Assembly: GCA_902781655.1 (NCBI GenBank)
Contig: CACZJZ010000005.1
Coordinates: 56,020-120,019 of the forward strand
Length of the DNA: 64,000 bases
Reading direction: 5' to 3'
From: an uncultured Lachnospiraceae bacterium
Lineage (GTDB): Bacteria > Bacillota > Clostridia > Lachnospirales > Lachnospiraceae
Shown here: positions 50,597 to 64,000 of the stretch, piece after piece
Position numbering within the stretch: the stretch's first letter is position 1
Layout of the letters: each line of letters starts with the position of its first letter
Notes under the pieces: generated by a model
Seen by the model: only the letters and a program-made list of their open reading frames with translations
Told to the model about the DNA's origin: nothing
The model's database searches: none
Position numbers and translations under genes: made by a program

Positions 50597-53500
50597 TTAC
50601 TCCTCATCACTCCTTTTCTTTCTGTACCCCGCAGCTGCCGCAAGAAGGGCAGCCGACAGCATCGCCAGAACAAGCCATCCCGTCATATGAGAATCATCCC
50701 CGGTCTGAACGCTTGCGTCGTTCGTGGCACTGCCATTCTTGCCGCGCTTTACCCCAAGGACACCATAATCAGCCGGATTCTCCGTAGCATGCTCCGTTTC
50801 CGATGTCGTTTCCACTGTCTGATCGGCCGGCTGCGTATTCTCCTGCGTTTTCTGATCCGGTGTTACCTTTGGATCTTCCGCCGGTCCCGAAGAATTTGAT
50901 CCGGTGTTTTCTGTATTGTCAGAGTTTCCTGCGTCCGGCTTGCTCTCTTTTTCCACGGAATACGAATTGCTGATTGTCACTGTAGAAACCTGTGAATCCG
51001 CGACCGCGACCGGAGCGCCATTGTCCCCGCCAACTGTGAGGGAATATCCCTGCACCTGCGCTGTGTCCGTACTCTCCGTTACCGTGTATGTCCCCAGCGG
51101 GATATTTTCGACTGTGATCCTTCCGTTCGTAAAATCGCCATACCGTACGGTTTTCTCATACTCCTCCGTGCCGCCCGCATTGCGAATCACAAACTGCGCA
51201 TCTGCCGGCGTCTCAGCGCCGCTGGATGTCTTGATGATCTCAAGACTGCCGGTTGGCTTTTTATATTTGTTAGTAAAAACAGCTTCTGCCTTTCCTTCAC
51301 TAGCAATTGTGCCGGTTCCTCCCGAGGATGTGGTGTCATATTCCTTATCCTCTGCCTCTTCCACCGTATAGGCAATTCCAGCCGGTAATCCTACTGCCGT
51401 GCGGGACTGTCCACTCGTCAGCGTGAATGATGCAACGCCCTTGTTGAAGGTCATGTCCCCGTATGTACCGTCAAGATTCTCGCAGCCAGTCAGTGTCACG
51501 GTAAATGCAAATTGCTTTTGGGTGTCGCTGTTCCCTACCACTGTCTTGCTGACAGAAAGACCTCCTCTCGGGAACGTCAGAGTTTTTTCCGTCTGCACCG
51601 ATCCGGTCTTGATCACTGCGCCAACCATGTTCTGGAAGACCTTGACATTGGAGTCAGTCACGTCTGTAACAGGCTGAAACATCCGAAGTTGCCCGTCCAT
51701 ATACTTGATGTTATCGGACGACACCGTCACTGTGACATCCCCCGCAGGCTTTTCCGCCGCGGTAAGCGAGAAGGTTTCCCCAGCCTTCACCTCCGCCGCG
51801 CTGGATGTAACACCGCTCCGGTCCACTGAAATCCTGTATGTCCCGTGATAATTATCCGGCGCAGTGATGTAGAGAGAATCGCTGTGCCACAGACCGTCCG
51901 CGGAATTATAGGTAAATGTCGTGCCGCCTTCGAGCCTAATGTCCGAATCTTTCGGAGCCTCTCTGAGAATCTTGGCGGCAGGAGCAGCAACCAGCAGGAC
52001 GTTTGACAGCGGTACTGTGTCCTTTTCGCTTTCAAGATTATTGAATTTCAGATGTTGTTTCGTCAGAAGATTCCATATTGCCTGTGAGGTCGCGGTATAT
52101 GCCTGAGACTCCGTCACATAGTAACTCCCGGAAAACATTTCGGTATATACGGAGAGCGGAGAGGATCCTCCGGCGTTTCCATAATCCATGCTGTAAGCCG
52201 CCCTCCAGAAAGGAAGCGCAGTCAACTGACTATAGGTAAGGCCGGATGCAGTTGTGCCGGAGGAGAGGTATCGGCCCGCTTCCTTAAGAAACTGATTCAG
52301 CCTATTGAGGTTTTCCGTATTTTGATTCGTATAATCCGCATAGGAAAACTGTGCATTTCCAATGCTGTCCGGGAAGTCCGTTCTCAGATATTCCGGGGGA
52401 ACCAGAAGCTGATTGAACTCCTCCTCACTGATCTGCTGTGCATTATCAACGATCTGGTACAAAGCCAGCCCGTTATTATTGTATCCGGCATAGATCAGTG
52501 CCTCCAGCTGGCTTATACAGGCGTCTGCATCTGCCACGCCATTCTTAGTAAGATAGGTTTTCAGATCCGCGGATACATAGTTCGGAGCAGTATATGTAGG
52601 AGTATCATGCGGCCAGTGCAGCGTATTATTCATGCAGAAAAGAATCAGGCTTCCGCCCTCTCCATCCTGGACCGAATGAATGTCTGTGTTGCTGTCGTAT
52701 CCGATCTTTATCCCCGTTTTGGTATCCGCCCCTCCACTCTCCCCTGCTCTCAGCACAGCAGCATAGATAGAGAACGCACTGCTGCTGAACTGCAGGGTTC
52801 CGCTCTCCTGATCAACCGCTTCTGTCGCCTCCTGCTCCGCGGCGGCAGAATCATCCTCCAGATGATAAAGCGCTGCTGTATCCCCGTCCTCGATGGTAAG
52901 TCCGCTGTACGTTACGGAAATATCCGTGAGCGGCTCGATCTCATGCTGATCTCCCAGATAGAAGTCAAAATCATACGCCACGATGTCGTCTGCCGTGATC
53001 GCGCTGTCATTTTCCGCCGTCTGAATTGCATGAAGAATGACCGCAGAATCCACCTTCGTCACCGCACATTGAATTCCCGCAGGGAAAGCTCCCTCCGGTG
53101 CGTCGATTGAGACGACAACGCCATCTCCTGTATCAATCTCATCCGTAAAGGCAGGATAGGAAAGCTCCTCTGCCGCGGCAGGGTCCCCCGTCATGTCTGT
53201 CGCTGCCATCTCCGCTGTTTCTGCAGCCGTGTTCCCATCCGTGCTTCCTTCGGCGCCGGAAACGGTCTGTTCTGCTCCTGCCGCGTCTATGACTGATTTT
53301 GAACCCTCACCGGAAGCATCCTCTCCTGTGGACGGAGCTGTTCCCTCCGCAGCGGAACCGCTCCCGCCGATGATCTGGTTCACCGTTCCACCGGATGACT
53401 GTCCCTCGGATGCAGCATTTCCTGTGTCGCCATTGGTTCCGCTGCCCGTGGAGGAAGATTCAGACGCTATTGCCGTCCCATTGCTGTCCGGAGCAGAAAT

Positions 53501-53725
53501 TCCTGCAATGGCGTTTTCTGTTCCGGAATCTGCTGCAACAATATTGGCCTCCGCAGGAGTTCCTGCTCCCGGTTCCTGCCCGGCACTGACAGCAGAGACC
53601 GTATTTGCTTCCGCAGTCACCGGCTCGCCCTCAGCCAGTGCAGAGGCGCCGGTTCCGGCAAGCAGAGCGCCGATCATCACTGCGGAAAGCAGATAGGAGG
53701 TGCCACGTTTATTATGCTCCTTCAT
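50597..53725 (-). CDS. Thioester-domain surface adhesin with sortase anchor
   Basis: 1042 residues. Signal peptide (1-32); a Ser/Thr/Ala/Gly-rich stalk (33-190); a beta region (190-330); a thioester domain with the Cys in LFCMNNTLHW (near 362) and the Gln in TSQAIWN (near 549), which in known members form an internal thioester that binds host surfaces covalently; a pilin-type isopeptide domain (about 735-860, GGLSVSKTVVG to NKYKK); a SpaA/Cna-B-like domain (860-950, GSLEIIKT...YTVTEST); a polar wall-spanning stretch; and an anchor SVQTGD, hydrophobic helix, RKKRSDEE. The VQTGD motif is an LPXTG variant. No sortase gene nearby. GAGAGGG precedes the ATG. Confidence 0.9.
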   Translation of the reverse strand: MKEHNKRGTSYLLSAVMIGALLAGTGASALAEGEPVTAEANTVSAVSAGQEPGAGTPAEANIVAADSGTENAIAGISAPDSNGTAIASESSSTGSGTNGDTGNAASEGQSSGGTVNQIIGGSGSAAEGTAPSTGEDASGEGSKSVIDAAGAEQTVSGAEGSTDGNTAAETAEMAATDMTGDPAAAEELSYPAFTDEIDTGDGVVVSIDAPEGAFPAGIQCAVTKVDSAVILHAIQTAENDSAITADDIVAYDFDFYLGDQHEIEPLTDISVTYSGLTIEDGDTAALYHLEDDSAAAEQEATEAVDQESGTLQFSSSAFSIYAAVLRAGESGGADTKTGIKIGYDSNTDIHSVQDGEGGSLILFCMNNTLHWPHDTPTYTAPNYVSADLKTYLTKNGVADADACISQLEALIYAGYNNNGLALYQIVDNAQQISEEEFNQLLVPPEYLRTDFPDSIGNAQFSYADYTNQNTENLNRLNQFLKEAGRYLSSGTTASGLTYSQLTALPFWRAAYSMDYGNAGGSSPLSVYTEMFSGSYYVTESQAYTATSQAIWNLLTKQHLKFNNLESEKDTVPLSNVLLVAAPAAKILREAPKDSDIRLEGGTTFTYNSADGLWHSDSLYITAPDNYHGTYRISVDRSGVTSSAAEVKAGETFSLTAAEKPAGDVTVTVSSDNIKYMDGQLRMFQPVTDVTDSNVKVFQNMVGAVIKTGSVQTEKTLTFPRGGLSVSKTVVGNSDTQKQFAFTVTLTGCENLDGTYGDMTFNKGVASFTLTSGQSRTAVGLPAGIAYTVEEAEDKEYDTTSSGGTGTIASEGKAEAVFTNKYKKPTGSLEIIKTSSGAETPADAQFVIRNAGGTEEYEKTVRYGDFTNGRITVENIPLGTYTVTESTDTAQVQGYSLTVGGDNGAPVAVADSQVSTVTISNSYSVEKESKPDAGNSDNTENTGSNSSGPAEDPKVTPDQKTQENTQPADQTVETTSETEHATENPADYGVLGVKRGKNGSATNDASVQTGDDSHMTGWLVLAMLSAALLAAAAGYRKKRSDEE

Positions 53726-54143: not shown

Positions 54144-55439
54144 ATGCTGATTCAATTCAACTTTAAGAATTACAAATCTTTCCGTGATGAGGTATCATTA
54201 GATTTAACAGCCACCCGCGTGGCTGGCCATCCAGATCATGTTGTGGAACTTGGTGGAGATAAACTGCTGCTCATCGCTGCCATATTTGGCGCAAATGCAA
54301 GCGGAAAGTCCTGCATCTATTCCGCCTTTAATTTCATGTCTTACTATGTAGCCAATTCTTTTTCTTTCGGAGGGGACAGCAATACTTCAAAGGGGCAGTC
54401 CTCTATGCTCAGAGTAACTCCATATATGTTTGATTCCGTCAGCAGAATGGAACCTACCTCGTTTGAAGTTTTCTTTATTGACAGCACGGATACCAAAGAA
54501 AGGACTTACCAGTACGGATTTTCAATTCTGGGAACAGAGATTATGGAGGAATGGCTGTATTCAAAAGCTAAGACAGCCAGAAATCATTATCGAACGATCT
54601 TTTGCCGCAAAAAAGATGAACCACTTCAAACAGACGGGCTTACAGACAAAGAACGAGAGATTCTGATTTCAACTCTTGAGCCTGAAACATTACTGGTTTC
54701 TCTCGGGGCTAAACTTAAAATTTCCAGGTTAAAACGGATTCGAGACTGGTTTTTGTCCAATGAGATCGTAGATTTTGGCGATCCTGATGAAAATCTGTTC
54801 CGCTCTCATATGCTCCCCAGAAACTTCACTGACAGTAAGGAAGTACAAGATAACGTAATTCATTATTTTTCTACATTCGACGATTCCATCTCAGGTTTTC
54901 ACATTGAGGAAGTTCAAAATGCGGATAGCGTAAACGAAAACGATAAGACCTATAAGATAGATTCCTTACATCATATGGATGATTCTGACAAGGAAGCCAC
55001 CATACCATTACAAGATGAATCAAGCGGAACATTGAAAATGTTTGCACTTTATCCCAGCCTGAAAGAGGTTTTGGATCATGGCAGCGTAATGTTTGTGGAT
55101 GAACTGAATGCGAAGCTCCATCCACTGCTCGTTAGGAACATCATACTTACCTTCACGAATCCGGAAATCAATGTCAACCACGCGCAACTAATCTTCACAA
55201 CCCATGACATCTGGCAATTTTCCGGAGATCTTCTGAGAAGAGATGAGATCTGGATTACAGAAAAGCAGAAGGGAAGATCCTCACTGTACTCTGTTGTCGA
55301 TTTTATAGGTGAGGATGGTGCCAAGGTCAGAAAATCAGAGGCGCTTAGTAAAAACTACCTTCTTGGGGAATATGGAGGTATTCCGGCGCTTCATCCGTTT
55401 GACATGTTGAAAGGGACCGACTCCAGTGGCAGGAAATAA
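54144..55439 (+). CDS. RloA/AbiLi-type AAA ATPase
   Basis: 431 residues of the OLD/RloA-type ATPase group. FNFKNYKSFRDEVSLDL is the typical N-terminal strand; Walker A GANASGKS (49-56); ABC-like signature region DESSGTLKMFALYP; Walker B VMFVDELNAKLHP; H-loop IFTTHDIWQF. Members pair with RloB-type proteins (AbiLi/AbiLii) in phage abortive infection or restriction-linked islands. GAGG 8 nt before the ATG. Base composition is clearly AT-richer than the surrounding genes, a sign of transfer. Confidence 0.9.
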   Translation: MLIQFNFKNYKSFRDEVSLDLTATRVAGHPDHVVELGGDKLLLIAAIFGANASGKSCIYSAFNFMSYYVANSFSFGGDSNTSKGQSSMLRVTPYMFDSVSRMEPTSFEVFFIDSTDTKERTYQYGFSILGTEIMEEWLYSKAKTARNHYRTIFCRKKDEPLQTDGLTDKEREILISTLEPETLLVSLGAKLKISRLKRIRDWFLSNEIVDFGDPDENLFRSHMLPRNFTDSKEVQDNVIHYFSTFDDSISGFHIEEVQNADSVNENDKTYKIDSLHHMDDSDKEATIPLQDESSGTLKMFALYPSLKEVLDHGSVMFVDELNAKLHPLLVRNIILTFTNPEINVNHAQLIFTTHDIWQFSGDLLRRDEIWITEKQKGRSSLYSVVDFIGEDGAKVRKSEALSKNYLLGEYGGIPALHPFDMLKGTDSSGRK

Positions 55440-55441
55440 TA

Positions 55442-55891
55442 CAAAAAATACACCTTGTAGAACGTACCATTGCGCTCGCTCATAATCAGGTACAATACTG
55501 TCTTCCGTGGATTGTCTTTGACCGGGACGAAGTTCCTGCATTCGATGACCTGATTGATCTTGCTGAAAAAAACGGCATCCAGGTAGGATGGTCCAACCCT
55601 TGTATTGAGATTTGGTTTTCTGCCTATTTTGGGCAAATGCCCAGCAGCCTGACATCGCAGGAATGCTGGAAACAATTTGCGGTTCTATTCAAACGGCGCA
55701 CTGGACATGATTACAGTAAGGATGACAGCAAAATATATGAATTTTTGAAAAAATATGGCGACGAGCAGAAGGCCATACAGCTTGCCAATATAAAGCTCCG
55801 AGGCTGTCATGGACGAAAGCCTTCCTGCGCATCACCGGCTTGCACCGTACATCAACTGGTAAAAGAAATTCTGGATAAGACCCAGAAATAA
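55442..55891 (+). pseudogene. N-terminally truncated RloB-like gene
   Basis: Directly after the ATPase stop codon a plus-strand frame reads RloB-type sequence without a start codon: LPWIVFDRDEVPAFDDLIDL, GIQVGWSNPCIEIWFSAYFG, then HDYSKDDSKIYEFLKKYGDE and a normal end. The DRDE acidic site is present, but the first roughly 80-100 residues of the family (with the catalytic Glu of the Toprim-like fold) are missing. The first ATG in frame is at 55637, after the DRDE block. A deletion seems to have joined the end of rloA to the middle of rloB. Confidence 0.82.
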
Positions 55892-55898
55892 TAGTCGG

Positions 55899-56915
55899 CT
55901 ATAGCCACTTTGCTCCGTTCAAACAGATTCTCGTAAGCTCCTCCTTCACGTCATCATCCGCGAACGAGGTCTCGATCGCATTCCGGAGCAGGGCATCCCG
56001 CTCCTCTCCGGTCAGGGAAAACGCGCGGTCCACTTCTCTCCACTCGTGCGTCAGCGTGATCCCGCTGACCGTCCGATTGTCCGTGTTCAGTGTGACAGGA
56101 ACGCCGGCCCGGAGATATTCCCGGACAGGGCAGGCGGAGATGCCGGGAATCGCTCTCGTCTGCAGATTGCTGGTCGGGCATTGCTCGACGCCGATGCGCT
56201 GCTTCGCCAGAAGCTGTTCCAGGTCATGATCCCCCCGCATGGCAGTTCCGTGACCGATCCGGCGCGCTCCCATAGCGACGGCCTCCCGGATGTTGTCGCG
56301 GCTCCCTGTCTCGCCGGAGTGAATTGTAATCGGAAGCCCGAGGCGGACTGCTTCCGCAAAAAGATCCCGGAACATTGCGTTGGGATACGCCGCTTCCGCG
56401 CCGGCGAGGTCCACGCCCACGACGCCGCAGCCAAGCTGCTCCCGCGCCGCGCGGAACGCTGCAGAATTTTCCTCTGCCGTCATGTGGCGCATCGCACAGA
56501 CAATCACGCCCGCGCGGAAGTATCGTCCCTCCGCCGCCAGTTTTGCCTGTGCCCTGGCAAGACCCTCGCACACCGCCCGAATGGCCCGTTCCGCCGTCAG
56601 TCTTTTCTCCCTGCAGCACATCGGGGCAAACCTTGTCTCCAGATAGACAATCCTCTCCTCCGCGCAGTCCATGGCAAGCTGAAAGGCTGCCCTGCGCAGG
56701 CTGTCCTCCGTCTGCAGAAGGGCGAGCGGAAGCGCGAATGTCTTCAGGTACTCCTCCAGGGAGGTGCAGTGCTCCGGCACCTGCATCCTCTCTCGCAGCT
56801 CCGGCAGAGTGACCTCCTCTCCGCGTTCGCGCAGCAATTCCTGGGCGAGCGTCAGATTGATCGAGCCGTCAAGATGACAATGTAAATCCAGCTTGGGCAT
56901 TTCTAAATAATCCAT
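55899..56915 (-). CDS. add: Adenosine deaminase
   Basis: 338 residues; converts adenosine and deoxyadenosine to the inosine forms. Zinc ligands His12 and His14 in LDLHCHLDGS; catalytic residues in IHSGETG and RIGHGTAM; LNTDNRTVSG supplies the last Asp pair. Full-length and complete. GAGG 7 nt before the ATG. Last gene of the yjjI-nucleoside operon, 26 nt after cdd. Confidence 0.96.
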   Translation of the reverse strand: MDYLEMPKLDLHCHLDGSINLTLAQELLRERGEEVTLPELRERMQVPEHCTSLEEYLKTFALPLALLQTEDSLRRAAFQLAMDCAEERIVYLETRFAPMCCREKRLTAERAIRAVCEGLARAQAKLAAEGRYFRAGVIVCAMRHMTAEENSAAFRAAREQLGCGVVGVDLAGAEAAYPNAMFRDLFAEAVRLGLPITIHSGETGSRDNIREAVAMGARRIGHGTAMRGDHDLEQLLAKQRIGVEQCPTSNLQTRAIPGISACPVREYLRAGVPVTLNTDNRTVSGITLTHEWREVDRAFSLTGEERDALLRNAIETSFADDDVKEELTRICLNGAKWL

Positions 56916-56941
56916 GACGTTACCTCATCCTGTCATGCCAA

Positions 56942-57355
56942 TCACTCCAGCGACTTCGGTCCGAATCCCAGCGGAAGCAGATCCTTCAGCAGGTAAGTCT
57001 GATACTGATCCTCCGAGACCGCGAGAATGATCTCGAACGTCTCCGGATCGCAGAACTCCATCATCACCTGCCTGCAAACGCCGCATGGCGCGCAGAGTTC
57101 CTTCGGCGCCTCACCGGCCTTGCCGCCCGCGATCGCGATGCGGCGGAATTCACGTTCTCCGTCATACACGGCCTTGAAGAACGCGGTACGCTCCGCGCAG
57201 CTCGCCGGTGTGTGCGCCGCGTTCTCGATATTGCAGCCTCCATAGACCTTCCCATCCGCGGCCTCGAGCGCTGCTCCGACGGCGAATCCGGAGTAGGGCG
57301 TATAGGCTCTCTCCCTCGATTTGAGTGCGATTCTGATCAATTCTTGTGTGCTCAT
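56942..57355 (-). CDS. cdd: Cytidine deaminase
   Basis: 137 residues, the usual size of the homotetrameric form. Zinc ligands Cys53, Cys91 and Cys94 (SCAERTAF, APCGVCRQ), catalytic Glu55; N-terminus ALKSRERAYTPYSGFAVGAAL matches the family. Deaminates cytidine and deoxycytidine. GGAG 9 nt upstream supports the ATG at 57355. An in-frame ATG at 57424 also has AGGAG before it and would add 23 residues. Confidence 0.95.
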   Translation of the reverse strand: MSTQELIRIALKSRERAYTPYSGFAVGAALEAADGKVYGGCNIENAAHTPASCAERTAFFKAVYDGEREFRRIAIAGGKAGEAPKELCAPCGVCRQVMMEFCDPETFEIILAVSEDQYQTYLLKDLLPLGFGPKSLE

Positions 57356-57376
57356 GTCAACCATCTCCATATGCAA

Positions 57377-57419
57377 AATACCCTTCCCATCCACAGTCGC
57401 CCGTGCCGGGAAAGGTATT
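57377..57419 (-). promoter_or_regulatory. Hairpin before cdd
   Basis: Minus strand AATACCTTTCCC / GGGAAGGGTATT, a 12-bp stem followed by TTTGC, in the 173-nt gap between nupQ and cdd. It could attenuate transcription, protect the 3' end of the transporter message, or hide the upstream start codon at 57424. Confidence 0.5.
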
Positions 57420-57528
57420 GTCATTTTTCTCCTGTCAAACCTGGTTGGCCGCCGTCCGCCATTGCAGATTCGAAAAGGATCTGCCATGCGACGAGGCCTG
57501 TCAGGATAACGATATCCACAGCCGCCCG

Positions 57529-58464
57529 TCAATGCGACTTCGTGAACGGCCTCCCGTTCGCCGCCGGCGCGTTGGCGCGTCCGACAAAGATCAGCAGTGC
57601 GAGGATCGTCACGATGTACGGGATCATCGAAATCAGATTCGGCGAGATCACGTTGCCCTGGCTCACCAGTGTCTTGATGCCGGTGCAGAAACCGAACAGC
57701 AGACAGGCGAGCATCGCGCCGCCGGGTGAGAACTTGCCGAAGATGACCGCCGCGATCGCAATGAAGCCCTGGCCGACAATGATGCTGGGACGGAACTGGT
57801 TTACCGTTGCAAGCGTCACGAAGGCCCCGCCGCAGCCGGCGAGGAAGCCGGACAGAATGACGCAGACGTAACGGACCCGGTACACATCGACGCCGAGCGA
57901 TTCGCAAGCCTCCGGGTGCTCGCCGCAGGCGCGGAGGTGATAGCCGAATTTTGTTCTGTAGAAAACGAACCAGCACAGCGCCGCCACGGCGAATACAAGA
58001 TACGCCATCACATAGTTGTTCAGCACATTTGCACCGAACGAGCCGCTGGGGAAGACACCCTCGAACAGCTTCGGAAGCTTGCTCGACGGATCCATCGGCG
58101 GTGTGTCGGAGGAATTGTCGAACATTGCCTTAGCCAGAAAGACCGACAGACCTGTGCCGAGGAAGTTGATCGCGGTGCCTGCGATCGTCTGATCCGCCTG
58201 GAACTGTATGCAGACAATGGCATGGATCACAGCGAGCGCCGCACCGGCAAGACCGCCGCACAGAAATGCCAGCCAACCGTTTCCGCTGAGCAGACCGACC
58301 ACCGCGCCGGTAAAGGCGCCGATCGTCATCATACCCTCAATGCCGATGTTGACCACGCCGGAGCGCTCCGAGAAGCAGGAGCCGAGCGCCGCCAGAAGCA
58401 GCGGAGGCGTTGCAATCAGCGTAGCGTTGATCAAAAGACCCAGATTCGTGATAAAAGATCCCAT
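57529..58464 (-). CDS. Nucleoside ABC transporter permease (NupQ/BmpD-like)
   Basis: 311-residue membrane subunit of the branched type (RbsC/LivH fold) with 8-10 helices. AALGSCFSERSGVVNIGIEGMM is the conserved start of the nucleoside-permease group, and GENPEACESLGV-like CGEHPEACESLGVDVYRVRY is the EAA-type coupling loop. Pairs with the permease just upstream. GGAGG 6 nt before the ATG. Confidence 0.93.
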   Translation of the reverse strand: MGSFITNLGLLINATLIATPPLLLAALGSCFSERSGVVNIGIEGMMTIGAFTGAVVGLLSGNGWLAFLCGGLAGAALAVIHAIVCIQFQADQTIAGTAINFLGTGLSVFLAKAMFDNSSDTPPMDPSSKLPKLFEGVFPSGSFGANVLNNYVMAYLVFAVAALCWFVFYRTKFGYHLRACGEHPEACESLGVDVYRVRYVCVILSGFLAGCGGAFVTLATVNQFRPSIIVGQGFIAIAAVIFGKFSPGGAMLACLLFGFCTGIKTLVSQGNVISPNLISMIPYIVTILALLIFVGRANAPAANGRPFTKSH

Positions 58465-58485
58465 CGCTTTCCTCCCCTGCCGTGG

Positions 58486-59568
58486 TTATGCGGCAGCCCT
58501 CTTCTTCGACGCCAGTCCCAGGAACAGCCGCTTGAAGACCTGAGAGATGCCGATGACGATGATGACGCAGCCCATGATGATGTCAACGATCTCCGCCGGT
58601 GCCTTGACCATAGTCAGCTTGGAGCCGCCGTACTTCATGGCGCCGTAGAAGATGCCGGAGATGATGCAGCCGATCGGGCTGGACGCGCCAATCAGCGCGA
58701 CCGTGATGCCCTCGAAGCCGAAGCCTTCCTGCGTCGCGTACTGCGCCAGCCTTCCGCCCATGCCGAGAATCTGCACCGCGCCGCCGAGTCCCGCCATCGC
58801 GCCGGAGATGCCGAGCGCCTGCAGCACAGAGCGGTCCGCGTTGATGCCGGCGGCCTTCGCCGCGCTGCGGTTGAAGCCGACCGCCTTGAGCCGGTAGCCG
58901 AGCGTCGTGCGCTCAATGATCACCCAGAGAAGAATGGCAAGTCCAATGGCGAGCACAATGCCCCAGTTAAACGCCGTGCAGCCGGTCGCCGTGCGCACGC
59001 TCTGCGGAAACAGAATGCTGGCCGAGGGGAGAATATCCTTGCTCGCCTCGCCGCCGCCCTCCTTGTGAATCACCTTGAGATTCACGACATAATTGGACAG
59101 ATAGAAAGCCAGCCAGTTGAACATGATGAAGGAGATAACCTCATGAATGCCCCGCTTCACCTTCATCAGACCGACGATGTAGGACCACAGGAACCCGGCT
59201 GCCGCCGCGCCCAGCAGACAGATCGGAATGTGGATCGCCGCAGGCACATCCAGCATGATGCCAAGCACGGTCGCTGTGAGTGCACCGACCACGTACTGTC
59301 CCTCAGCGCCGATATTGAAGATCCCCGTCCGGAACGAGAAGGCGACGGAGAGTCCGGTCAAAATAATCGGCTCCGCGTAAGTCAGGGTGTAGAACCAGTA
59401 TTTTGGCTTCCCGAAAATACTCGACGCAAGCTTGCCGTAGGCCACGGCAGGACTGATGTGCGCGATCTCAAGGAATACCGCGCCGATCAGGAAGCCGATG
59501 ACGATCGCGATGACAGTGTAGAGGAAATTTCCCTCCAGAATTCTCCGGCCGATTGATTTCTTCTTCAT
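58486..59568 (-). CDS. Nucleoside ABC transporter permease (NupP/BmpC-like)
   Basis: 360-residue second permease. FRTGIFNIGAEGQYVVGAL and LKAVGFNRSAAKAAGINADR are the family's conserved helix and coupling-loop motifs; a conserved WGGI-type motif is not visible. GGAGG 9 nt before the ATG, which overlaps the end of the ATPase gene by 4 nt. Confidence 0.94.
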   Translation of the reverse strand: MKKKSIGRRILEGNFLYTVIAIVIGFLIGAVFLEIAHISPAVAYGKLASSIFGKPKYWFYTLTYAEPIILTGLSVAFSFRTGIFNIGAEGQYVVGALTATVLGIMLDVPAAIHIPICLLGAAAAGFLWSYIVGLMKVKRGIHEVISFIMFNWLAFYLSNYVVNLKVIHKEGGGEASKDILPSASILFPQSVRTATGCTAFNWGIVLAIGLAILLWVIIERTTLGYRLKAVGFNRSAAKAAGINADRSVLQALGISGAMAGLGGAVQILGMGGRLAQYATQEGFGFEGITVALIGASSPIGCIISGIFYGAMKYGGSKLTMVKAPAEIVDIIMGCVIIVIGISQVFKRLFLGLASKKRAAA

Positions 59569-61106
59569 TGCTTCGCACCTCCTGCCATCATGAAGCCGAG
59601 TTCCTTCTCATCCGCATCCCTGCCGGCGATCTCGCCCTGAATCTTTCCGTCGAAGATAACGTCGATCCGGTCGGAGAGATCGATGATCTCGTCCAGCTCA
59701 AAGGAAACCAGCAGCACCGCTCTTCCCTTGTTGCGCTGTTCCACCAGGTATTTGTGCACGAATTCAATGGCGCCGACATCCAGTCCTCGCGTCGGGTTGA
59801 ATGCGATCAGAAGCTCCTTGTCGTTCGTGACCTCCCGGGCGATGATCACCTTCTGCTGGTTGCCGCCGGACAGCGTCCCCGCCGGGTGCGCCTCCGTATG
59901 CCGGGGGCGAATATCGAACCGCTCCTCCAGCTCCGTCGCGTGGCGCCGAATCACGCCCCTCTGAAGAATATCATGTTTTGCGTACGGCTCCTCGTTGTAA
60001 TGCTGCAGGATGAGGTTATCCTCCACGGCGAAGTCGAGGATAAGTCCGTTCTTCTGGCGGTCCGCCGGGATGCAGGAGATGCCGGCGTCGAAGAGTTCCT
60101 TCGGCGTCCTGTTGAACACATCCTTCCCCTCCATCGTGATCGTGCCGGACTCTGCTTTCTTTAAACCTGTCAGGATCTCTACAAGCTCAGTCTGCCCGTT
60201 TCCGTCGACGCCGGCGAGACCGACAATCTCTCCCGCTCTCACATGAAGATCGAGGCCCTTCAAAATCTCCGCGCCGCGGTAGTCCTTCGCGCGCAGGTCC
60301 TTTACCTCCAGCACTTCTTTCCCGGGTTCCTTGTCCGGCTTGTCCACGGTAAAGCTGACATTACGGCCGACCATCATGGAGGCGAGCTGACTCTCCGAGA
60401 CATCGGAGACCTTCACGGTGTCGATATATTTGCCCTGCCGGATGATGGTGCAATAATCCGAGCAGGCCTTGATTTCCTTCAGCTTGTGCGTGATGAGGAT
60501 GACGCTCTTGCCGTCGCCGGTCAGATTCCGGATGATCTCCATGAGTTCATCGATCTCCTGCGGCGTCAGAGAAGCGGTCGGCTCATCGAGAATCAGCGTC
60601 TTCGCGCCGCGGTAGAGCACCTTCAGAATCTCCACGCGCTGCTGCATTCCGACCGAGATATCCTGAATTTTGGCGTCCGGGTCGACCTTCATGCCGTAGC
60701 GCTCCGACAGCTCAATGACCCGCTTCCTGGCCGTCTTCTCATCGACGACGATGCCGCGCGTCGGCTCCACGCCAAGAATGATGTTGTCCGTGACCGTGAA
60801 CGGCTGAATCAGCATGAAGTGCTGGTGCACCATGCCGACCCCGAGCTCGATGGCGTGCCGCGGTCCGTTCAGGTGGACCTCCTGCCCGTCGATAAAAATC
60901 TGTCCGCTCGTTGGCTTGTACAGACCGTAGAGCACATTCATCAGTGTGCTCTTGCCGGCGCCGTTCTCTCCCAGAATGGCGTGAACCTCGCCCTTGTGGA
61001 CCGTGAGATTGATGTGATCGTTCGCCGTGAAATCGCCAAACTTCTTGACGATATCCTTCATCTGGATGACCACGGTGTTCTCATCGATGTGACTCGTATG
61101 ATCCAA
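59565..61106 (-). CDS. Nucleoside ABC transporter ATP-binding protein (NupO-like)
   Basis: 513 residues with two ABC domains. First (about 10-250): Walker A GENGAGKST, signature VGMQQRVEI, Walker B LILDEPTASL. Second (about 265-510): degenerate GVDGNGQTE in place of Walker A and signature LSGGNQQKVI, as usual in sugar and nucleoside importers. The start is the TTG at 61106, supported by GGGAGG 8 nt upstream; the next in-frame ATG is 15 codons on. Lies 34 nt after yjjW. The expected substrate-binding lipoprotein (BmpA/NupN) is not in the window. Confidence 0.94.
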   Translation of the reverse strand: MDHTSHIDENTVVIQMKDIVKKFGDFTANDHINLTVHKGEVHAILGENGAGKSTLMNVLYGLYKPTSGQIFIDGQEVHLNGPRHAIELGVGMVHQHFMLIQPFTVTDNIILGVEPTRGIVVDEKTARKRVIELSERYGMKVDPDAKIQDISVGMQQRVEILKVLYRGAKTLILDEPTASLTPQEIDELMEIIRNLTGDGKSVILITHKLKEIKACSDYCTIIRQGKYIDTVKVSDVSESQLASMMVGRNVSFTVDKPDKEPGKEVLEVKDLRAKDYRGAEILKGLDLHVRAGEIVGLAGVDGNGQTELVEILTGLKKAESGTITMEGKDVFNRTPKELFDAGISCIPADRQKNGLILDFAVEDNLILQHYNEEPYAKHDILQRGVIRRHATELEERFDIRPRHTEAHPAGTLSGGNQQKVIIAREVTNDKELLIAFNPTRGLDVGAIEFVHKYLVEQRNKGRAVLLVSFELDEIIDLSDRIDVIFDGKIQGEIAGRDADEKELGFMMAGGAKQ

Positions 61107-61140
61107 CGTTGTTTCCTCCCTGCCTCATAATGATGCATCT

Positions 61141-61998
61141 TCAGATCAAAACTATGTCCTGATATCCCATGTCGGCGAGCAGGTCCCGGAGCTGCCCGAG
61201 ATATGCCTGGGACGGCACCTCGTAGTGGGAATACTGCTCCCGCACGCCCATCGGCCGGTACGCGATCAGCTTGATCCGGAACGGATGCTCCGCATAGACC
61301 TCCCGGAGAAATTCGCCCGACGCACGCACGCTCCGCGCCGTGTCATAGAGATCGGGCACGATCACAAACCGGACCTCCTCCAGCTTGCCGCGATGGCCGA
61401 GCCACAGCGCGTTTCGCAGCACGTTCGCGTTGTCCGCGCCGGTGACTCTGTGGTAATCCTCCGGATCGAACGCCTTGATGTCCAGCATGACGCCGTCGCA
61501 GACCTCGCATAGCGCAGGGAAATTCTCGAACAGAATCATGCCATTGCTGTCGATGAGGGTGCCGAGTCCGTCCTGCTTTGCAAGGCGGAAGAGCGCCGTG
61601 AGAAACTCCGGGTGCAGCGTGCACTCACCGCCCGACACGCTGATGCCGCGGATGCAGGGAATTTGCTTCCGCACCTTCTCCATCACTTCCTCCGGCGTCA
61701 TCCACTGCACGCGCGGTGAAGCGTCGTGCGGACACACATGAATGCAGGTGTCGCACTGACAGCACAGATCCGGGTTCCAGACCACAGTCCGTGCTCCCTC
61801 ACGCTCCGCAAAGGACAGCGCGTGCGCCGGACATTTCTCCACGCAGAGTCCGCAATTCACGCAGACTCTCCGTGTCTCCGGGTTGTGGCAGTACCTGCAG
61901 TCGATGTTGCACCCCTGCAGGAAAATGGCTGTCCGGCAGCCCGGTCCATCCACGCTGCTGAACGGAATAATTTTATTGACAAGTGCCTTTGGTTCCAA
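61141..61998 (-). CDS. yjjW: YjjW family glycyl-radical enzyme activase
   Basis: 285-residue radical-SAM enzyme. The cluster motif CNIDCRYC (Cys30, 34, 37) is followed by two ferredoxin-type 4Fe-4S motifs (Cys46-49-52-56 and Cys79/80-82-85-89), the layout of glycyl-radical activases. SVSGGECTLHPEF, DSNGMILF and DIKAFDPEDYHRVTG are further SAM and substrate blocks. It would abstract a hydrogen from Gly483 of YjjI. Start is TTG at 61998 with GGAAGGG upstream. Lies 94 nt after yjjI. Confidence 0.95.
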   Translation of the reverse strand: MEPKALVNKIIPFSSVDGPGCRTAIFLQGCNIDCRYCHNPETRRVCVNCGLCVEKCPAHALSFAEREGARTVVWNPDLCCQCDTCIHVCPHDASPRVQWMTPEEVMEKVRKQIPCIRGISVSGGECTLHPEFLTALFRLAKQDGLGTLIDSNGMILFENFPALCEVCDGVMLDIKAFDPEDYHRVTGADNANVLRNALWLGHRGKLEEVRFVIVPDLYDTARSVRASGEFLREVYAEHPFRIKLIAYRPMGVREQYSHYEVPSQAYLGQLRDLLADMGYQDIVLI

Positions 61999-62092
61999 AT
62001 GAATCTTCCCTTCCGTGCCCGTTCCCGGACCGTCCGTGTGTCAGATTCCTTTCCCGGACCATTTCTGTAATCCTGCGGACAGCTGGCGTCTG

Positions 62093-63664
62093 TCAGCGCA
62101 CCTTCCGCTCCAGAATATGCCCGTTCTTCGCCGCGCCGAGTCCGAGAGCTGTCGTGTCGTGAATGACCGCTGTCCCCTTGTTCAGCTTCTCCAGTTCCGA
62201 GCGCTTCACCAGATAGCCGGTGACGCGGATGACATCGGAATTGCTCGAATAGAACGACAGATACCGCAGATTCATCCGGAACGCGCCCTTGATGATGTCG
62301 AGCACATATTCCGGGTTTCTGTGGACCGTGATGTCAACCGGGAAGATATCGCCGGTGCCGGACGGGAAGTAATGGTGGAAATTCGACAGCACACGAAGCT
62401 GATCGATCAGTTCCTCCGGCTCCTCTCCGATCGGGATGCGGGTGCCTGGCGTCACGTTTACATCGCTCGCGATGCCAACCTGCGCATGGAGCAGGAAATG
62501 ACCGTCCGTCGCCTCACAGTACGGATTCGTGTGATGCTGGTTGAAGTCGTCGATGATGTTCATGATCTCCACGCCGAGCTTTGTTGCCTCCTCGTCGTGG
62601 CCGAAGCGCAGCGCGGAACCGTCCGGGCGTCTCCTGCCCTCCTTCTCAAGAAGGATGTCGACAGCCTCCGCCAGACCGACCAGACCGAACATCGCCGAGA
62701 AATTTTTCCGGTCAATCAGGCCCTCGCGGACGAGAAAATTCTGCTCGAAGAACCCGCTCTCCTCCACCTCGAACCGGATACGGGCATCCATATAGCGGGC
62801 CATGATATCACAGACATAGGGCAGCTGGTTCTTTTCAAAATCCTCGATGCCCGACGCGCGCTTTGCGATATTGCCGAGAATCAGACGGCACAGTGTGTAG
62901 GATCCGCCGCCCAGCTTCAGACCGTTGTAGCAGCTGGCGATGACATACCGTTCGCCGAGTTCCTTCACGAACATATTGTGATTGGCAAAGCTCGGCTTTG
63001 CGCAGTGAAGCGCGCAGTCGATGGCCTTCATCATGTATTCGTCGGTGGTGACGCCCTCCTGATATTTGAGCGAGAGGTTCGGAACTGCATCCTCCAGCTC
63101 ACTCTCTGCCTCAAAGATATAGAGTGCGGCTTTTGTCGGCCTCGGTCCGATGTCCGCGTGGGAGAAGGAGTCGAGAATCGTGCGGTCGCACTGCTTCAGA
63201 AACAGCCTGATCAGTTTCTTCGCCGTCGCCTCGTCCACGGTATCGATATAAGGCTCCAGCAGATCGTCCAGCTGGCCGAGGTACACCGGATAATTGGTGA
63301 CGCTCGGAACATGCTTGTACAGGATGAGAAGATTATTCAGCGCCTCATACAGATCCCTCGGCGGGTCGAGCCGGAGATATTCGCTGCCCTGCTTTAGAAA
63401 CTTCTCATAGTCGGGGCAGATATAGCGGGGGCGCATCGGTGCGTGTCCCTCGGACAGATCGCAGATGCACTGCCGGTCGATCGGCTGATTCAGAAGCTCG
63501 TCAAGTCCCTCCGGCAGATCCAGCACCTCCAGCAGGGAATCCGCCTTCTGCGCCATCACGGCGACTTTCTGCTCGTGCGTCAGCTCAGGGGATTCGATGG
63601 TTTCAAGAATTTCCTGTCTGGTTTTCTCCACGCGCTCCATCGAAATCGGTCTCATTTCTTTCAT
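62093..63664 (-). CDS. yjjI: YjjI family glycyl-radical enzyme
   Basis: 523 residues, the size of YjjI (DUF3029) and shorter than pyruvate formate-lyase. The C-terminal radical motif RVTGY gives radical Gly483; the thiyl Cys is probably Cys245 in VIASCYNGLKLGGG. Other family blocks: RDLYEALNNLLILYKHVPSV, FANHNMFVKELGERY, SGTGDIFPVDITVHRN. The radical is destroyed by oxygen, so the enzyme works in anaerobic conditions. Substrate unknown. AAGGAG 7 nt before the ATG. First gene of the operon yjjI-yjjW-nupO-nupP-nupQ-cdd-add. Confidence 0.95.
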   Translation of the reverse strand: MKEMRPISMERVEKTRQEILETIESPELTHEQKVAVMAQKADSLLEVLDLPEGLDELLNQPIDRQCICDLSEGHAPMRPRYICPDYEKFLKQGSEYLRLDPPRDLYEALNNLLILYKHVPSVTNYPVYLGQLDDLLEPYIDTVDEATAKKLIRLFLKQCDRTILDSFSHADIGPRPTKAALYIFEAESELEDAVPNLSLKYQEGVTTDEYMMKAIDCALHCAKPSFANHNMFVKELGERYVIASCYNGLKLGGGSYTLCRLILGNIAKRASGIEDFEKNQLPYVCDIMARYMDARIRFEVEESGFFEQNFLVREGLIDRKNFSAMFGLVGLAEAVDILLEKEGRRRPDGSALRFGHDEEATKLGVEIMNIIDDFNQHHTNPYCEATDGHFLLHAQVGIASDVNVTPGTRIPIGEEPEELIDQLRVLSNFHHYFPSGTGDIFPVDITVHRNPEYVLDIIKGAFRMNLRYLSFYSSNSDVIRVTGYLVKRSELEKLNKGTAVIHDTTALGLGAAKNGHILERKVR

Positions 63665-63726
63665 TTTGCTTTCTCCTTACTGTGAAAACAACGGATTTAT
63701 AGATACAGCGCTGTTTTTATCCCTGC

Positions 63727-63825
63727 CCCTGGTCCAGGGAGCGGAGTAATCCGGACGGAAGTGCGGAGAATGGCCGCCTCTGCCCGGGTGAAAATAAGCG
63801 CAAAAAGTCAATATGAATTATAGCA
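63727..63825 (-). promoter_or_regulatory. Promoter and palindrome upstream of yjjI
   Basis: Minus strand TGCTATAAT (63817-63825) is an extended -10 element (TGnTATAAT); the -35 position holds no good match. About 80 nt downstream, in the leader, lies a perfect palindrome CCCTGG-T-CCAGGG (63727-63739), a possible operator. The rest of the 150-nt leader shows no known riboswitch. Confidence 0.5.
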
Positions 63826-63829
63826 TAAA

Positions 63830-63863
63830 AAGAACCCTGCGGAAGTCTTTCCGCAGGGTTCTT
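63830..63863 (-). terminator. Intrinsic terminator of a gene beyond the right edge
   Basis: AAGAACCCTGCGGAA / TTCCGCAGGGTTCTT (15-bp stem, 4-nt loop) followed by TTTTT on the minus strand. It insulates the yjjI operon from upstream transcription. Confidence 0.9.
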
Positions 63864-63928
63864 CTATGGGTTCCCTTTAGGCACTATTGCTTTTCAATCG
63901 GCCGGGAGTTTGACACCCAAAAGTCCGG

Positions 63929-63955
63929 AAAGCCTTGAAAAGGCTTTATTTTTTC
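63929..63955 (+). terminator. Intrinsic terminator-like hairpin
   Basis: AAAGCCTT-GAA-AAGGCTTT followed by ATTTTTT on the plus strand. No gene feeding it was recognised in 63664-63928. The remaining bases to 64000 are AT-rich and hold nothing that could be assigned. Confidence 0.65.
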
Positions 63956-64000
63956 GTCAAATTAAATTTTGTGTATATGGTAATACGGTAATATATGTGG

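Follow-up and report, generated by a model that had tools for sequence, protein, structure and literature searches.

The glycyl radical enzyme gene yjjI and its activase gene in a predicted nucleoside import and deamination operon of an uncultured Lachnospiraceae bacterium

YjjI and its setting

The glycyl radical enzyme YjjI and its radical SAM activase YjjW occur in Escherichia coli, where yjjI lies divergent from deoCABD and where, in the records read, the pair has neither a Nup-type importer nor cdd or add beside it. Here we describe yjjI and yjjW in a 64,000-nucleotide (nt) stretch of DNA from an uncultured Lachnospiraceae bacterium (contig CACZJZ010000005.1; hereafter the window), in which the two genes instead sit inside an importer operon. 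No assigned reaction for YjjI turned up in the literature searched. Both genes have been tabulated as FNR-activated (PMC2634741), and yjjI is reported to rise 4.3-fold in Yersinia intermedia without oxygen (PMC3792023). From co-expression in E. coli and Salmonella, a 2011 study predicted that YjjI takes part in nitrogen assimilation, and it mentions that an NrdD-like domain had been predicted in the protein (PMC3228777); in a 2024 study on the superfamily of glycyl radical enzymes, the main text contains no word starting with Yjj (PMC11528403). The literature, searched largely at the level of titles and abstracts, yielded no link between YjjI and nucleosides, nothing treating yjjI, yjjW and deoC together and, from 2018 on, nothing joining a glycyl radical enzyme, nucleosides and genome neighborhood.

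As the initial annotation had described, seven genes run head to tail on the minus strand within 55899-63664, in the order yjjI, yjjW, nupO, nupP, nupQ, cdd, add. The 523-residue product of yjjI (62093..63664) matches PF11230 with 718 bits (cut-off 23) and, over residues 17-523, TIGR04040 with 672.3 bits (curated cut-off 498.3), which makes it a full-length YjjI; it is 41% identical to the E. coli protein over 97% of the query, and the E. coli pair belongs to the same families. YjjW (61141..61998, 285 residues) is a radical SAM activase with a ferredoxin-like insert that matches TIGR04041 with 353 bits (cut-off 250) as well as the Radical_SAM and Fer4 families. Next come a nupO-like ABC ATPase of 513 residues with two ABC_tran domains in Pfam (59565..61106) and two BPD_transp_2 (PF02653) permeases, nupP-like (58486..59568, 360 residues) and nupQ-like (57529..58464, 311 residues). 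The run ends with a cytidine deaminase gene, cdd (56942..57376, start codon uncertain; TIGR01354, 128.7 bits, cut-off 113.65), and an adenosine deaminase gene, add (55899..56915, 338 residues; TIGR01430, 250.6 bits, cut-off 216.55).

A two-domain ATPase with two permeases is the architecture of the BMP/NupOPQ nucleoside ABC importers, and relatives of the window also carry the Bmp lipoprotein gene; the window's cluster differs from these importers in holding a radical enzyme and its activase besides. From its family and its cdd, add and deo neighbors, the importer would carry nucleosides. Because the locus combines this importer with two deaminases (Cdd and Add), a glycyl radical enzyme and the activase dedicated to it, we read it as an anaerobic nucleoside utilisation operon in which YjjI would carry out a redox-neutral radical step on a nucleoside or its pentose. 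This full reading has, in our estimate, about an even chance of being right. That YjjI, an oxygen-sensitive radical enzyme, acts in nucleoside use in the window's lineage is probable.

Association of yjjI with nucleoside genes

The neighborhoods of 83 yjjI loci show that the enrichment of nucleoside genes extends beyond the two lineages from which it had been proposed. A nucleoside gene (bmp, nupOPQ, cdd, add, deoABC or that of a purine nucleoside phosphorylase [PNP], called by blast score thresholds) lies within 9 kb of yjjI in 37 of the 83 loci, compared with two of 42 controls, each with one such gene. The loci comprise 27 from the window's family (its own genome, L101 and 25 further loci), 42 from further families in the same phylum, eight named genome records and six records from a plasmid collection; the named and plasmid-collection records apart, sampling was confined to the phylum of the window. 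Genome G747 has a yjjI match and is outside the 83. The controls were 35 offset positions and seven nrdD surroundings in yjjI-carrying genomes, with no one-to-one matching. By set, any nucleoside gene is found near yjjI in 22/27 loci of the window's family, 8/42 of other families, 6/8 named records (three of which apparently duplicate contigs from genomes of the window's genus, those genus genomes being kept out of the counts) and 1/6 plasmid-collection records, the one being E. coli. A complete nupOPQ set is found in 20/27, 7/42, 4/8 and 0/6, respectively, and in none of the 42 controls. When the 79 full-length proteins are dereplicated at 97% identity, 75 loci remain, of which 34 have a nucleoside gene and 30 a complete nupOPQ set (0/42 controls). 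Our home-made gene caller, which combines coding-like open reading frames (ORFs) with a homology bonus, overlooked cdd in the row for the window itself, so the enzyme counts are to be read as minima: one or more enzyme genes lie near 22 of the 75 dereplicated loci (PNP 13, cdd 11, add 8, deoC 8, deoB 6, deoA 3). Five reference names (pdpL206, gt3L207, pnpL203, pnpL205 and deoCown) were excluded from the counts and might sway a few ORF choices; some reference names are wrong-strand readings, L206 lying beside trpD on the other strand and the deoC of L202 also being on the other strand.

Fisher tests on these counts give 2e-6 and 1e-7; their rows are related to one another, so the YjjI tree weighs more. 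On that tree of 79 proteins the nucleoside-link label needs 11 changes, and well-supported branches force at least eight of these; gains of the link cannot be distinguished from losses. Four loci (L063, L090, L108 and L186), short or split, were left out of the alignment and trees; the yjjI frames of L063, L090 and L056/L058 seem split or cut and may reflect assembly errors. Gene order also varies among linked loci: bmp-yjjI-yjjW-nupOPQ, yjjI-yjjW-bmp-nupOPQ, bmp-nupOPQ-...-yjjI-yjjW and yjjI-yjjW-X-bmp-nupOPQ are all seen. A NupO tree (like the YjjI tree a quick one, with long-branch warnings) holds 31 proteins linked to yjjI and 19 unlinked ones; the linked proteins fall into divergent groups, several on long branches: L188/L189; L080; L183; L069/L070/L072; L185/L187/L190; L103/L179/L180/L181; and the window's group of 17.

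Within the window's genus, yjjI is present in 6 of 41 genomes, and a NupO of at least 81% identity is found in exactly those six; of the others, 19 have a NupO of 49%-56% identity and 16 have none at the threshold used (25 of the 41 genomes are below 90% completeness or above 5% contamination). The cluster thus behaves in the genus as a unit with its own importer. Genome G817 holds two yjjI-yjjW copies on one contig (L180 and L183), each with its own bmp-nupOPQ. The two copies differ in accessory genes, PNP and deoC in one and cdd and a sulfatase gene in the other; this genome measures 6.9 Mb and has a listed contamination of 8%.

Several observations weigh against a general tie of YjjI to nucleosides. 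Outside the window's family only 8 of 42 loci have a nucleoside gene within 9 kb, and since most loci there lack one, this operon cannot be a strict requirement for the reaction. Among four Gammaproteobacteria records, deo genes lie near yjjI in E. coli only. Even in the window's family 5 of 27 loci are unlinked (L168, L177, L178, L184 and L186), but the sequence stops at most 0.5 kb from yjjI or yjjW in L178 and L186 and at most 4.2 kb away in L177. The NupO tree needs only two changes of the linked label; all 19 unlinked proteins come from one genus, so this tree shows divergence and not the number of recruitments. Amidohydrolase genes of unassigned specificity adjoin yjjW or the importer in L187 and L188, the one in L188 belonging to cluster c130, which was Pfam-scanned in L073; with deaminases, these two amidohydrolases make up the base side among 60 Pfam-scanned neighbor proteins, so the substrate of YjjI may also be a base. 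Gene neighborhood alone, finally, cannot name a substrate. The association is thus real and frequent in the window's family and thin elsewhere (34 of 42 loci of other families and five of six plasmid-collection records have no nucleoside gene within 9 kb). It is this association, together with the forced changes on the YjjI tree, that sustains the proposed tie of YjjI to nucleoside import and catabolism; of two further arguments in the initial annotation, that from genes missing from the operon falls and that from yjjI as first gene is doubtful, as described below.

The foremost rival explanation is that YjjI acts on an unrelated compound and was simply recruited to nucleoside operons as an anaerobic cassette of general use. 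In its favor, 46 of the 83 loci lack any nucleoside gene within 9 kb, among them 11 of the 16 loci with less than 5 kb of flank on a side, and yjjI-yjjW also occurs in other settings, as beside a glycerate kinase gene in L104. The FNR activation listed for both genes (PMC2634741) and the predicted role in nitrogen assimilation (PMC3228777) would fit it as well. Against it, the link recurs in well-separated YjjI clades, with different gene orders and divergent importers, and in the genus yjjI co-occurs with one importer subfamily. We therefore consider a general cassette rather unlikely. In L104, yjjI-yjjW is followed by a CdaR-like sugar-diacid regulator gene and then by the glycerate kinase gene, a context different from that of the window. 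Crp/FNR-like regulator genes lie within three genes of yjjI in 9/83 loci and anywhere in the controls in 0/42; the nine are L075, L103, L104, L178, L181, L183, L184, L188 and L189.

Candidate chemistry of YjjI

YjjI has the marks of a glycyl radical enzyme: a C-terminal glycyl loop, a loop cysteine and an adjoining radical SAM activase. The candidate thiyl cysteine, Cys245 (codon 62930..62932, minus strand), stands in S244-C245-Y246-N247 and aligns with the loop cysteines of pyruvate formate-lyase (PFL) and NrdD; the candidate glycyl radical residue, Gly483 (codon 62216..62218, minus strand), stands in RVTGY. S244, C245, Y246, N247 and G483 are each invariant in 79/79 full-length YjjI proteins, and the glycyl motif (RI/VTGY or RVSGY) was matched in 76 of them, the pattern missing three. 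The activase motif CxxxCxxC is present in 78/78 yjjW proteins longer than 230 residues. In L190 (7358-10482, minus strand) nupO follows yjjI directly, with no yjjW between; its activase may be encoded elsewhere. C245 is the sole invariant cysteine of YjjI (C68 is kept in 69/79 and C383 in 57/79), and this single invariant cysteine points, as far as the alignment can tell, to a redox-neutral reaction. A sequence search found no solved YjjI structure.

YjjI aligns with both NrdD and PFL and lacks the defining marks of each. Profile alignment with hhalign places it slightly nearer to NrdD (E 5.6e-17 over 436 columns) than to PFL (E 3.5e-14 over 396 columns), with C245 on the loop cysteine of each. 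With PFL and the glycyl radical eliminases (PF02901) it has in common an alignable barrel, loop cysteine and C-terminal glycine loop, and with NrdD the RI/VTGY glycyl motif. Its SCYN loop is unlike those of the relatives fetched, which read CCVS in the PFL type, GCVE in the eliminase type (L208 and L211) and GCRT in NrdD. Assignment as a PFL-type enzyme fails on the absent pair of adjacent cysteines, position 244 being serine in 79/79. Eliminases carry a Cys-x-Glu signature, whose glutamate their chemistry needs; in YjjI, the residue two positions past C245 is N247 in 79/79, so that signature is absent. Nor does YjjI fit NrdD: the window's protein scores 19.7 bits against PF13597, below the cut-off of 26.2 (other YjjI members match it at E down to 2.8e-14, in 47/58), it has no GCRT loop or second invariant cysteine, and its 523 residues compare with open frames of 671-739 for NrdD.

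In the mechanism we propose, the importer would bring in nucleosides, and Cdd and Add would convert the cytidine and adenosine forms to uridine and inosine forms. YjjW, using S-adenosylmethionine, would place a radical on Gly483 of YjjI, from where it would pass to Cys245. The resulting thiyl radical may then attack the sugar moiety of an imported nucleoside, or the freed pentose or pentose phosphate, and by removing a hydrogen drive a redox-neutral elimination (dehydration) or C-C cleavage. Placing the substrate in the sugar part of the nucleoside is a tentative step that we think somewhat more apt to be wrong than right, and any named product would be less secure again. The linked importer and the recurrence of nucleoside links in separate clades narrow the search for the substrate to nucleosides and pentoses; were the proposal correct, it would add radical chemistry to the salvage of nucleic acids by anaerobes.

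An alternative route had also been argued from the lack of a phosphorylase or deoC. These genes are indeed missing from the operon, but the genome encodes both elsewhere: DeoC (TIGR00126, 231 bits, cut-off 117), PunA-type and DeoD-type purine nucleoside phosphorylases and, judged on a 229-residue part, a pyrimidine-nucleoside phosphorylase. Relatives keep them in the cluster, where deoC, deoB, PNP or deoA-type phosphorylase genes stand alongside yjjI; in L231 and L233, of the same genus, genes for a DeoD-like protein, bmp, yjjI, yjjW, nupOPQ, cdd and deoC are clustered, with deoB added in L233. The argument from missing genes accordingly falls, and the YjjI step would run beside the ordinary phosphorylase/DeoC route, not in its place. 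Sugar-side enzymes differ by locus. DeoC and phosphopentomutase are found in some; L182 has a nucleoside hydrolase, two transketolase halves and a ribulose-phosphate epimerase; L188 and L189 have a protein of the L182 nucleoside hydrolase cluster two genes from yjjI; and L080 has an IF-2B-type isomerase with a class II aldolase. What these accessory enzymes share is the release and use of pentose.

Three more specific proposals for the chemistry can be set beside a redox-neutral step on the nucleoside or its pentose. YjjI could be a C-C lyase of the PFL kind, acting on a keto-sugar or keto-acid derived from the pentose; its barrel aligns with that of PFL and Cys245 falls on the second loop cysteine of PFL, but Ser244, invariant in 79/79, replaces the first, and we regard this proposal as improbable. 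Similarly a long shot is that YjjI is a catabolic offshoot near NrdD that would abstract the 3'-hydrogen of an imported ribonucleoside; with no reducing cysteine, the 2'-hydroxyl would leave unreduced and the base would be expelled by radical dehydration without phosphate. If true, this would be a radical, phosphorylase-independent opening of nucleosides, perhaps of ones that phosphorylases refuse. Very improbable is a relative of class III ribonucleotide reductase working at the nucleoside level, which would reduce ribonucleosides to 2'-deoxyribonucleosides for cleavage by phosphorylase, DeoB and DeoC, with acetaldehyde as an electron sink: the somewhat better hhalign fit to NrdD than to PFL, the NrdD-like RI/VTGY motif and deoC near 8/75 loci speak for it, whereas NrdD chemistry needs a second redox cysteine and YjjI has one invariant cysteine only, the loop is SCYN and not GCRT, most loci have no deoC nearby, and L182, L188 and L189 carry a nucleoside hydrolase.

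The upstream region, transcription signals and flanking genes

Upstream of the yjjI start the contig continues for only 336 nt, to window base 64000, so whether yjjI is the first gene cannot be read from the window. The initial annotation had taken it to be first and hence central to the pathway, which is doubtful. In 17 loci the gene immediately before yjjI, in the same orientation, is a BMP gene; one of these loci is L002, whose YjjI is 99% identical to the window's and in which the gene encodes a BMP/PnrA-type binding protein. In the window's own genome, a 98% identical bmp lies on another contig, C37, 207 nt from its tip, and a 94-nt block that starts 19 nt past the bmp stop is an exact copy of window 63903-63810. 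The block on the bmp side is L230 9442-9535; both contigs break there and the outer flanks differ, the last 94 nt of C37 past the block being unlike the window and the outermost 97 nt of the window unlike C37. From the relatives and the shared block, the order bmp-yjjI is likely in this genome too, although the block sits on two assembled paths and the assembly itself leaves the order ambiguous.

Inside the block, a strong terminator-like hairpin with a T tail lies upstream of yjjI (63829..63863, minus strand); the fold of 63660-64000 has a z of -4.73, and the consensus scan did not list the hairpin. The same hairpin is found in L002 and after bmp on C37, so yjjI may begin a separate transcript after it. 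Matches to Rfam upstream of yjjI are all below gathering scores, giving no known RNA leader there, and an FNR-type box with at most two mismatches has 25 matches in the window (26.5 expected), none upstream of yjjI.

Spacing within the run is generally short: 94 nt between yjjI and yjjW, 34 between yjjW and nupO, a 4-nt overlap of nupO and nupP, 21 between nupP and nupQ, about 152 between nupQ and cdd (varying with the cdd start chosen) and 26 between cdd and add, from the gene coordinates. The consensus scan lists no minus-strand terminator-like site within these gaps, in agreement with the earlier description of the operon, and the scan for promoters finds no promoter-like match in the 34-nt yjjW-nupO gap, where a break would have separated the enzyme pair from the importer. 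Promoter-like sites number 7 in the region, with 3.0 (sd 2.1) expected. Two on the minus strand overlap the nupQ-cdd (57532-57503) and cdd-add (56936-56907) junctions, so internal promoters are possible. A terminator-like site listed just after add (55869..55887, minus strand) is weak, the scan finding 8 such sites and 7.4 in shuffles.

Beyond add lies a convergent gene for an AAA_21-type ATPase (54144-55439, plus strand), followed by an ORF of 84 residues without a Pfam match. Farther on, 50597-53725 (minus strand) encodes a large cell-surface protein whose translation opens with a signal-like segment and has a hydrophobic anchor region at the C terminus.

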